A stretch of DNA of 64,000 bases, taken from Chryseobacterium oranimense (GTDB lineage: Bacteria; Bacteroidota; Bacteroidia; Flavobacteriales; Weeksellaceae). Positions 11,481 to 26,071 of this stretch are shown here, in pieces. A program made the position numbers and the translations under genes. The stretch covers positions 3,658,001 through 3,722,000 of the forward strand of contig NZ_CP104203.1 in assembly GCF_025244725.1 (NCBI RefSeq), given 5' to 3'. Position 1 is the stretch's first letter. Each line of letters starts with the position of its first letter. The notes beneath the pieces are model-generated. The model was given only the letters and a program-made list of their open reading frames with translations, did no database searches and had not been told where the DNA came from.

Positions 11481-13067
11481 TCAGGTTTTATGATCCTTTT
11501 CTACGTTTTCAATAAAAACAGAAGGAGAAATTCCGGTAGTTTTTTTAAAAATTTTGGAAAAATTTTCTCCGGATGAAAATCCTGATAAGGATGCGATTGC
11601 GCTGATCTTATATTTCCGGAATTTAGCATCTTTCAGTATATTTCTGCATATGTAATCTATACGGAGTCCATTAATATAGGTATTGAAATTCTTGCCTTTA
11701 TGACGGCTGATGATCTCCGAAAGATAGCGGGTGTTGGTTTTAAGATCAGATGCTAATGAAGGCAGACTGATATTTGGATTAAGATATTTATCAGAATTTT
11801 CAAATTTATTAAGTTTTGTAATAATTTGTTTTTCAGTCTCTTCTGTTATTTCTATGGAAGGATTGGATTTTTTAATGGTTTTTTCTTCAGCCATTTCAGC
11901 GGGCCGGCTTTTTTCTTCAAGGTTTTTAATAAAATTCTGATAAAACAGTTTTTCTTTTTTTCTCTTTTTCTGAAAATAAAGAACAAAAGAAACGAAGACA
12001 ATAATACACGCTAAAAGGATGGAAAGAAGTATTTTCAGACTGAATTTGTTCTTTTGGGATTCATTACGGTTCTCATTTTCCAGAATTTGCAGGGTCTTGC
12101 TGAGCACTTTATTTTCTTCTTCGGAAAGGGAATCTTTAACGGCAAGGTAAAGATTATTGTACTTTTGATAGTTTTTTAAATCATTTGTGGATTTGTAATT
12201 TTGTGCCAGATAACTATACAGCTGTGCTTTTAACGGAGTCTCATTACCTTTTATCACCCTTTCAGCATTTTTTTAAGTATCGATAGCCCTTTGATACTGT
12301 TTCCTCTGGTGATAAACAAGAGTGAGATTCAGTTTTGCATTTTTTAAAATTTCATCCTTATTTAAAGGAGTGGTATTGGCTACTTCTATTGCTTTAAGTG
12401 AATAATATTCCGAAGAATCGGGGCTTTTCTTCTGAAAATAACTGACAGCCAAATCAGTATAGGCTATATTATAATACATTCTTACCCATTCATCACTTTT
12501 ACTGGCTTTTGAAAGAGGATCCAGTGCCCGGTGAAAATAATAAATGGATGAGTCAAGCTTGTTTTCCTGCCGCATAAATACTCCGTACTGCCATAAGAAT
12601 GCAGACTGTATTGTGCTTTTGGTGCTCTGCTTTGTGTCTTTGGGGAGATCTTTAAGATAAACCAATCCCTCCTTAATTTCCTTCTTAGCCTTTGTAAGGA
12701 TATTGTTATCTCCATACTGATAAGCTAATAAAAGAGAGGATCTGGCTTTAATTTCCTGATTATCCGTAAGCAGAGCGGCCTCTTTTGCTTTTAATGTACA
12801 GGAAAAAGACTGATTTTTTTTACCCAGCAAAGTATAGCATTGAGCCATTTCAATAAAAAGATTAGCCCTTGTTCTTGCATCATTTTTTAAATAGGGAAGA
12901 AGCTTTTGAGCCATGACCAGGGCGGAATCAGGATTGATACCTTCAGCATCCTGTATTGGGCGGAGTTTTAAATGGTTCTTTATACGATCCTCTTCCGAAA
13001 CCTGGGAATAAAGATTGATGTTAAGAAGAAATAGAATGGGAATCAGTATTTTACAGGCATTATTCAT
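11481..13067 (-). pseudogene. TPR/transmembrane/AraC-type regulator interrupted by an in-frame TAA
   Basis: The frame encodes a signal peptide or anchor (MNNACKILIPILFLLNINLYSQ), about 240 residues of TPR-like helices, a TAA stop (12273-12275), further TPR sequence, a coiled stretch, one transmembrane helix (LKILLSILLACIIVFVSFVLYF), and a C-terminal AraC-type helix-turn-helix domain (ISAIASLSGFSSGENFSKIFKKTTGISPS). Such TPR-TM-AraC proteins are common one-component regulators in flavobacteria. Both halves are in the same frame and the residues flanking the stop (RAIDT, then KNAERVIKG) look continuous, so a single substitution explains the break. The -7 element at 13086-13093 supports the start at 13067. 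The membrane and DNA-binding parts would be lost unless the stop is read through. Confidence 0.82.
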
Positions 13068-13085
13068 TAAGTGTATTTTTCTGTA

Positions 13086-13093
13086 CAAAAGTA
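13086..13093 (-). promoter_or_regulatory. -7 promoter element of the TPR/AraC regulator
   Basis: Reads TACTTTTG on the minus strand, 18 bases before the ATG at 13067. Confidence 0.6.
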
Positions 13094-13307
13094 TTAAAAA
13101 GGAAATATTGAAAATAATAATTGTTGAAACCAATACTCACAAAATATACTGCAGGAATTGTTACTGCTTAAAATATCAGTTGAGCAAATAGCTTATATAA
13201 ATGTGAATTTAGCATCATTTTCTTTATATGAAATATCAATAGTCAAATAGATTATTAATGTAAAAAAATAAAAAAAACAGCTGTTTTAATTGAATTTACT
13301 TATTTTT

Positions 13308-22852: not shown

Positions 22853-24244
22853 ATGGGAAATTTAAAACTAAAAGGAAAAGATATATTAAAACTCGGTTAT
22901 CCGAATAATCAAAGTGTCAATGTGGCTTTGGAGGTTATGAAAAGAAATTTTGCAACGAAGAATATTCATCATGTAAAATCTATTTTAAAAGAAATTCTCC
23001 TGAACCCTGAAGACTTTGAAAAGGACCTGACTTTCGGACAGATTGCAGAATCGCTGCTCTCATCCAGAAAAACAGAAAAAAGAATGCTCAATACCCAGCG
23101 CGCTTCCTTCCGGATCTTTGGAAACAATATTTCTGAAGAAGCAAAAAACCAGCTGTACACCGCTTTAAAGCTGCCGATTTCGATGCAGGGGGCTTTAATG
23201 CCCGACGCCCATAGCGGTTACGGACTTCCGATAGGAGGTGTTCTCGCAGTAGAAAATGCGGTGATCCCTTATGGTGTGGGAATGGATATCGGCTGCAGGA
23301 TGAGCCTCAGTATTCTGGATATACCGGTTTCATATCTTGACGGAGCAAGGGACAAATATGAAAAAGCCCTTGCAGAGCACACCAAATTCGGGATGTACGA
23401 AACCCATAAATCTCATATTGATCATGAAATCTTTGAGAGAGATACCTTCGATATGATCCCGGTTTTGAGAAGATTAAAAGGAAAAGCCATTAAGCAGATG
23501 GGATCTTCCGGAGGCGGAAATCATTTCGTAGAATTCGGAGAGGTGGAAATCACGGAAGAAGATGACCAGATTGGGTTACCGAAAGGAAAATATCTGGGAA
23601 TCCTCTCACACAGCGGTTCTAGGGGATTAGGGGCGGAAATTGCTCAATATTACTCAAGAGTAGCTGCAGATCAGTGTCCGCTGCCAAAAGAAGCTCAGCA
23701 GTTCGCCTGGCTGGATCTCAGTACCCATCTCGGCCTGGAATACTGGACTGCAATGAATCTTGCCGGAGATTACGCCTCTGCCTGTCACGATGACATCCAT
23801 AGAAGACTGGTAAAAGCGGTCGGCGGAAGAGTGAAGGCAAGAATTGAAAACCATCACAATTTTGCATGGAAGGAGATTCATAACGGAAAAGAAGTGATTG
23901 TTCACAGGAAAGGAGCTACTCCGGCTAATGTAAACGAACTGGGAATGATTCCTGGTTCCATGACGGCTAAAGGTTTTATCGTTCGTGGAAAAGGAAATCC
24001 GGATTCATTGAATTCGGCATCACATGGAGCGGGGAGAGCCCACTCAAGAGGAGAATGCAGGAGCCTTTTCACTCAGAATGATATCAAAAAAGAGCTGAAG
24101 CTGAAGAAAGTTACTCTGATGGGAGGGAATACGGAAGAAGCACCGATGGCTTACAAAGACATTCATGAAGTAATGAATGCTCAAAGCGAATTGGTGGATA
24201 TTCTTGGAACATTTCAGCCCAGAATTGTGAGAATGGACAAGTAA
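22853..24244 (+). CDS. rtcB: RtcB-family RNA ligase, PrfH-linked type
   Basis: A 463-residue GTP-dependent ligase that joins RNA 2',3'-cyclic phosphate or 3'-phosphate ends to 5'-OH ends. The metal-binding residues appear in GMDIGCRM (Asp145, Cys148) and in NHHNFAW (His334-335), plus GSSGGGNHFVEFG. The His that carries GMP is His391 in SASHGAGRAHSR. The ATG at 22853 is preferred to the GTG at 22811, which has no support. The gene is the first of four on the plus strand with a nucleotidyltransferase-fold gene, prfH and a TPR gene. RtcB proteins next to PrfH are known to religate rRNA cut in the decoding centre. Confidence 0.94.
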   Translation: MGNLKLKGKDILKLGYPNNQSVNVALEVMKRNFATKNIHHVKSILKEILLNPEDFEKDLTFGQIAESLLSSRKTEKRMLNTQRASFRIFGNNISEEAKNQLYTALKLPISMQGALMPDAHSGYGLPIGGVLAVENAVIPYGVGMDIGCRMSLSILDIPVSYLDGARDKYEKALAEHTKFGMYETHKSHIDHEIFERDTFDMIPVLRRLKGKAIKQMGSSGGGNHFVEFGEVEITEEDDQIGLPKGKYLGILSHSGSRGLGAEIAQYYSRVAADQCPLPKEAQQFAWLDLSTHLGLEYWTAMNLAGDYASACHDDIHRRLVKAVGGRVKARIENHHNFAWKEIHNGKEVIVHRKGATPANVNELGMIPGSMTAKGFIVRGKGNPDSLNSASHGAGRAHSRGECRSLFTQNDIKKELKLKKVTLMGGNTEEAPMAYKDIHEVMNAQSELVDILGTFQPRIVRMDK

Positions 24245-24263
24245 TGAGTCTTAAACTTTACAG

Positions 24264-24290
24264 CCTTATAGGTTTCAAAAACCTATAAGG
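24264..24290. repeat. 12-bp perfect palindromic hairpin inside the rtcB operon
   Basis: CCTTATAGGTTT (24264-24275) and AAACCTATAAGG (24279-24290) flank CAA. It is followed by TTTAATAAAG, not a proper T run, so it is at best a weak terminator. From memory, palindromes of this type recur between flavobacterial genes. Confidence 0.6.
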
Positions 24291-24321
24291 TTTAATAAAG
24301 AATTATTTTAAAATTAAAAAA

Positions 24322-24876: not shown

Positions 24877-25575
24877 ATGGAAAAACTCATACAAATAACT
24901 TCAGGAAGGGGACCTTTGGAATGCCAGTGGGTGACTGCAAAAGTTCTTAAGGTCTTTCTTGAAGAGATAAAAAATAATAAAATAGATTATGAAATCATTC
25001 ACCGGGAAAACGGTGATTAAAACCTGACCCTTAAATCCGTAACCATTCTTTTAAAAGCAAAAGATCTGACGGAATTTTTAAAAACGTGGCTAGGAAGCAT
25101 ATGCTGGACCGGGAAAAGTACATTCAGGAAGCTGCACAAAAGAAGCAACTGGTTTATCGGTGTTTTCGAACTGGAAGAGCTTGAGCAGATCCATTTCAAC
25201 GAAAAAGATATTCAGTTTCAGACCACAAGAAGTCAGGGAAGCGGAGGCCAGAATGTGAATAAAGTAAATACAGCTGTTCGCGCAGTTCATGTACCCACCG
25301 GGGAAAGCGTATTTGCACAGGATTCACGTTCGCAGCTGGAAAACAAGAAGCTGGCCATGATGCGTCTGAAAGAAAAAGTGACAGGACTTTATATCAGACA
25401 GCTTGAAAAAAGAATGCAGGACACCTGGAACAACCATCTGCAGCTACAGAGAGGGAATCCGGTCCGTACATTTTCCGGAACAGATTTTAAAAAGAACCAT
25501 CAGGATAAATCATTCAAAAAACAAAGGAATATCCTGAAAAAAGAACTCAAAAACAATAGACATGACCTTAACTAA
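24877..25575 (+). pseudogene. prfH: prfH (release factor H) with in-frame TAA at codon 48
   Basis: PrfH is an RF1/RF2 paralogue lacking the codon-recognition domain; with RtcB it rescues ribosomes cut in the decoding centre. The frame starts MEKLIQITSGRGPLECQW and continues to the catalytic GGQ at codons 123-125 ([16 protein letters not shown]), then RGNPVRTFSGTDF, all as in PrfH of other bacteria. One TAA (25018-25020) breaks it after HRENGD; the residues after it (NLTLKSVTILL) continue the homology in the same frame. No good in-frame start lies between the TAA and the GGQ, so the active part would be lost without readthrough. It may be a real mutation, a sequencing error, or programmed. The start is 3 bases after the preceding stop. 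Confidence 0.85.
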
Positions 25576-26071
25576 AAGTAAATATTATTTTGAAGCACTG
25601 GATAATTATCCATACAACCTTCCGGATTGTCTGGAAGCACTGAACTATGCCTTGTCCTACGATCCTGAAGATGCAGACAGCCTCTGCCTGATGGGGAGAA
25701 TTTACAGCGAAATGCTCACCGATTATGAAAAAGCAAAAACCTATTTTGAAGAAGCCATGCAGTGCAATGTAACCAATCTCAATACACCCCAGCATTATAT
25801 AAAATGCCTTTTGGATAATGAAGATCTGGACGAAGCTGAAAAACTAATTAATTATGCATTAAAAATAAAAGGAATAGACAAAGCAAGAATATTGATACAA
25901 AAATCGCTGCTGTATGAAATCAGATTAGAATATAGAAAAGCGCTGGAACCATTAAAAGATGCAAGAAAGTACAGTTATAACCAGGCAATGTTAGATTTTT
26001 TGAAAGGCAGAGTTAAGTTTATAAAGAATAAAATGGAAAAAAAGCCTGGAAAGAAAAATAAGAACAAATAA
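25562..26071 (+). CDS. TPR protein at the end of the rtcB-prfH operon
   Basis: A 169-residue soluble protein with tetratricopeptide-like repeats (DADSLCLMGRIYSEMLTDYEKAKTYFEEAM, then two weaker units) and a very basic tail ending KKPGKKNKNK. The start overlaps the end of prfH by 14 bases, so translation is probably coupled and the gene is in the same operon. TPRs bind protein partners; the basic tail could touch RNA. A scaffold or ribosome-binding role in rRNA repair is an inference from position only. Confidence 0.75.
   Translation: MTLTKSKYYFEALDNYPYNLPDCLEALNYALSYDPEDADSLCLMGRIYSEMLTDYEKAKTYFEEAMQCNVTNLNTPQHYIKCLLDNEDLDEAEKLINYALKIKGIDKARILIQKSLLYEIRLEYRKALEPLKDARKYSYNQAMLDFLKGRVKFIKNKMEKKPGKKNKNK

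Follow-up and report, generated by a model that had tools for sequence, protein, structure and literature searches.

A probable recent nonsense mutation in prfH within an otherwise intact rtcB–prfH cluster of Chryseobacterium

We analyzed a stretch of 64,000 nucleotides (the window) from a single-contig 4.37 Mb Chryseobacterium chromosome (complete genome, 99.85% complete) and found that its prfH gene is interrupted by an in-frame stop codon. The best explanation, to which we assign a probability of about 0.87, is that a recent G>T nonsense mutation turned prfH into a loss-of-function allele and left the rest of its gene cluster intact. In the shared region, the window is ~93% identical at the nucleotide level to its nearest relative, C. 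oranimense DSM 19055; strain BLS98 follows with ~92%. The cluster runs in the order rtcB, nucleotidyltransferase-like gene, prfH, and TPR-repeat gene, with the following features:

22853 to 24244, plus strand: rtcB-family RNA ligase gene (RtcB2-like PrfH partner), intact, 463 amino acids from the ATG at 22853; PF01139, 270 bits
24322 to 24873, plus strand: small nucleotidyltransferase-like gene in the interval between rtcB and prfH, intact, 183 amino acids; weak PF10706 match
24877 to 25575, plus strand: prfH, 233 codons including the end stop, interrupted at codon 48
25018 to 25020, plus strand: in-frame TAA, codon 48 of prfH; GAA in the sister species
25562 to 26071, plus strand: TPR-repeat gene, open, 169 amino acids, overlapping the last 14 bases of prfH

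The rtcB frame contains no stops and shares 99% identity with the sister species. The nucleotidyltransferase-like gene scores 22.2 bits against PF10706, a weak match given the cut-off of 21, and has an ungapped counterpart in all eight relatives compared.

The prfH frame opens with the ATG at 24877-24879 and resumes past the TAA to the end stop, also TAA, at 25573-25575. When read through, it encodes 232 residues with the GSGGQ motif intact downstream of the stop, and residues 4-204 match NCBIfam TIGR03072 (peptide chain release factor H) with 207.3 bits, above the equivalog cut-off of 166.65 bits. An earlier, sequence-only reading of this DNA had placed an in-frame TAA at codon 48 of prfH, had seen PrfH sequence on both sides of it in one frame, and had noted no good start between the stop and the GGQ motif. 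The coordinates and the frame were confirmed, the TIGR03072 match agrees with the second of these observations, and a scan for in-frame starts bears out the last: the first ATG, GTG, or TTG past the stop is a GTG at codon 127 (25255), whereas GGQ begins at codon 123. Therefore, no usual start gives a fragment that carries GGQ. With respect to PrfH membership, the TIGR03072 match when read through, the GGQ motif, and an rtcB-family partner one small gene upstream are all present, but an uninterrupted frame for the whole protein is missing, and we regard the prfH of the window as a pseudogene candidate rather than a working member. There is no second prfH copy in the genome, the other PF00472 matches being prfA, prfB, and an ArfB-like frame.

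The origin of the stop is indicated by the comparison of codon 48 across related prfH genes that the sequence-only reading had called for. Both sister species read GAA at this codon, as do all six outgroups. Among 112 aligned loci, it encodes Glu in 89 and is a stop in the window alone; a search of 173 genus genomes found a stop at this position in none of the other 172. G128 and G135 were discounted as genomes of low quality or completeness. From this alignment, the TAA is read as the product of one G>T change in the Glu codon GAA. The sense codon in relatives, together with the independent prfH breaks seen across the genus, favors what had been offered as the simplest reading, namely that an operon still intact in its other parts has recently acquired a nonsense mutation. 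It had also been stated that a sense codon elsewhere and a solid TAA here would indicate a simple pseudogene: the first part holds, and the TAA is that of the assembly.

The stop appears to be young. In the part of prfH that follows it, the window branch carries 8 synonymous and 2 nonsynonymous changes, where ~30 nonsynonymous changes would be expected if the branch had been neutral throughout. Based on parsimony counts, Poisson limits, and simple assumptions, at most ~20% of the branch was unconstrained. Such strong past constraint downstream of the stop implies that the stop arose late on the window branch. The frame beyond the stop is free of decay, as it also would be if the gene were still functioning. 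Indeed, the constraint seen in these sequences is compatible with a null allele of very recent origin as well as with continued function, and dN/dS alone is too little to settle the case of a young singleton stop. A young null allele is nevertheless far likelier than continued function, because the stop is private and unconserved and because the gene has been broken repeatedly elsewhere. Many in-frame stops in bacteria are short-lived (Belinky et al., PMC7918605).

Across the genus, prfH is uninterrupted in ~160 of 173 genomes (count by row). Nonsense codons interrupt it in three other Chryseobacterium species, at codons 37, 143, and 220, and the allele with the stop at codon 37 additionally carries GNGGQ in place of GSGGQ. 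Together with that of the window, these make four nonsense alleles, each of which arose separately and at a tip of the gene tree. Further damage consists of one frameshift and two deletion remnants; prfH is absent with rtcB kept in one genome, and both genes are absent in three. The apparent break in the prfH of G032 was rejected, as it is merely a contig end with an exact 99-base overlap. The rtcB gene is intact in ~163 genus genomes, with scattered breaks in a few: a TGA at codon 8 in L198 (G060), a TGA at codon 141 in L199 (G031), and frame breaks near codon 128 in L200 (G123) and near codon 21 in L131 (G097). In L198, L199, and L200, an uninterrupted prfH lies beside the broken rtcB. The rtcB-containing locus of G035 has, at the expected place of prfH (L196:6117-7916), a tandem array of ~226-base units, which contain diverged copies of the last ~54 rtcB codons and a palindrome.

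It is unlikely that the TAA results from a base-calling or assembly error and that the strain has a sense codon 48 and an intact prfH. Such an error would account for a single substitution in a gene otherwise free of decay, and the base is known from the assembly sequence. However, the genome is a complete single contig, and the change is a substitution, unlike the homopolymer indel that is the typical long-read error. In addition, of the 52 ORFs in the counterpart region of C. oranimense that have a match in the window, prfH alone is disrupted, which points neither to an error-rich assembly nor to general decay of the region; the latter was rejected on this count. Even less credible, to the point of being hardly worth entertaining, is that reinitiation or an internal start gives a working C-terminal PrfH fragment. 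A CTG does lie two codons past the stop (25024), at a codon that is ATG in C. oranimense, but CTG is a poor start and the fragment made from it would be without the start of the codon-recognition domain; the scan of in-frame ATG, GTG, and TTG codons found no internal start between the stop and GGQ.

The sequence-only reading had also raised another possibility, in which ribosomes with damaged decoding centers would pass the TAA and PrfH would be produced when needed, similar to the control of RF2 by an in-frame stop. We consider such a switch, which would be particular to this one species, very improbable. As in the RF2 gene (prfB), an early in-frame stop is found in a release-factor gene, but RF2 control relies on a +1 shift of frame at a slippery site with a strongly conserved TGA motif (PMC12421855), whereas the prfH stop of the window is an unconserved TAA. 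The prfH frame is unchanged across it, which excludes an RF2-type frameshift. The conserved stop expected for RF2-like recoding is absent, as the TAA occurs in 1 of 173 genus genomes and the other prfH nonsense codons stand at different positions. The prfB of the window genome itself (L001, genome G000, 2047397-2047726 and flanks) is a single open frame of ~370 codons that lacks the frameshift stop of RF2. In bacteria, TAA is the stop that leaks least, and ribosomes cut by colicin E3 reportedly decode poorly rather than read through. Among the tRNAs read, no ochre suppressor turned up: the 81 tRNA matches carry 31 anticodon types, none of which reads a stop, UAA included, although 150 of 313 first-look candidates were scored and an unusual tRNA could be missed.

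The intact downstream frame, constrained over most of the branch, speaks for read-through, and some bacterial in-frame stops have been argued to be read through (Belinky et al., PMC7918605). The RNA 3′ of the stop is ordinary, with no unusual stimulatory structure (z −0.76 vs shuffles). The hairpin immediately 5′ of the stop does exceed shuffles somewhat in strength (z −2.16), but it was rejected as a stimulator: it lies on the wrong side for typical read-through and is weaker or differently folded in most relatives compared, all of which lack the stop. Synonymous variation near codon 48 is average, with no dip there and with low values confined to the two ends of the gene. If a read-through switch did operate here, it would represent a novel type of regulation, but the data argue against it.

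In the favored reading, translation ends after 47 residues, and the product loses most of the codon-recognition domain along with the whole GGQ domain. Such a product should leave the cell with no working PrfH, while the genes for the RtcB ligase, the nucleotidyltransferase-like protein, and the TPR protein remain open. Published work assigns to PrfH and RtcB2 a role in rescuing and repairing ribosomes whose decoding center was cut by colicin E3 (PMC9223846). The window has the same gene pair as the rtcB2-prfH module of E. coli ATCC25922 described in that work and, when whole, presumably acted in the same way, releasing and repairing ribosomes after a cut in the decoding center. It differs from that module by an extra nucleotidyltransferase-like gene between rtcB and prfH and by the cut at codon 48, with only the ligase half expected. 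As plasmid rtcB2 alone protected E. coli and deletion of just prfH led to a low growth defect (PMC9223846), the loss of prfH with rtcB kept is plausible; by extension to Chryseobacterium, its effect is probably mild. The loss may be tolerated because ribotoxins threaten the cell intermittently or because RtcB, tmRNA, and an ArfB-like factor make up for part of the missing activity. The window genome also has tmRNA and an additional frame of 148 codons with an RF-1 domain, judged ArfB-like by its size.

The allele is ordinary in kind, since prfH pseudogenes formed by nonsense, frameshift, and deletion, among them the rtcB-prfH operon truncated in E. coli K-12 strains, were already published in 2006 (Baranov et al., PMC1586002). 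Similar to these, the window has a prfH near an rtcB-family gene with an obvious inactivating mutation. In K-12, however, a deletion of ~1,000 bases runs through both genes, whereas the window has one private nonsense codon and both neighbors are intact. On its own, the finding matters little. It does provide a clean, datable case in a genus where prfH, and sometimes rtcB, has been repeatedly lost in single species while the pair was kept genus-wide, a pattern as expected for an accessory defense against intermittent ribotoxin attack.

Finally, two other features of the window were observed. A second in-frame TAA, at 12275-12273, lies in a minus-strand gene at 11487-13133, of which the C. oranimense region yielded no counterpart; this gene is 82% identical to an intact 530-residue gene of BLS98 (TPR and AraC-type regulator by eye) and is cut at residue 265 of the latter. 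Between rtcB and the nucleotidyltransferase-like gene, positions 24262-24300 form a palindromic repeat with AAACCTATAAGGTTT, which is present as a single copy in the window when up to one mismatch is allowed.
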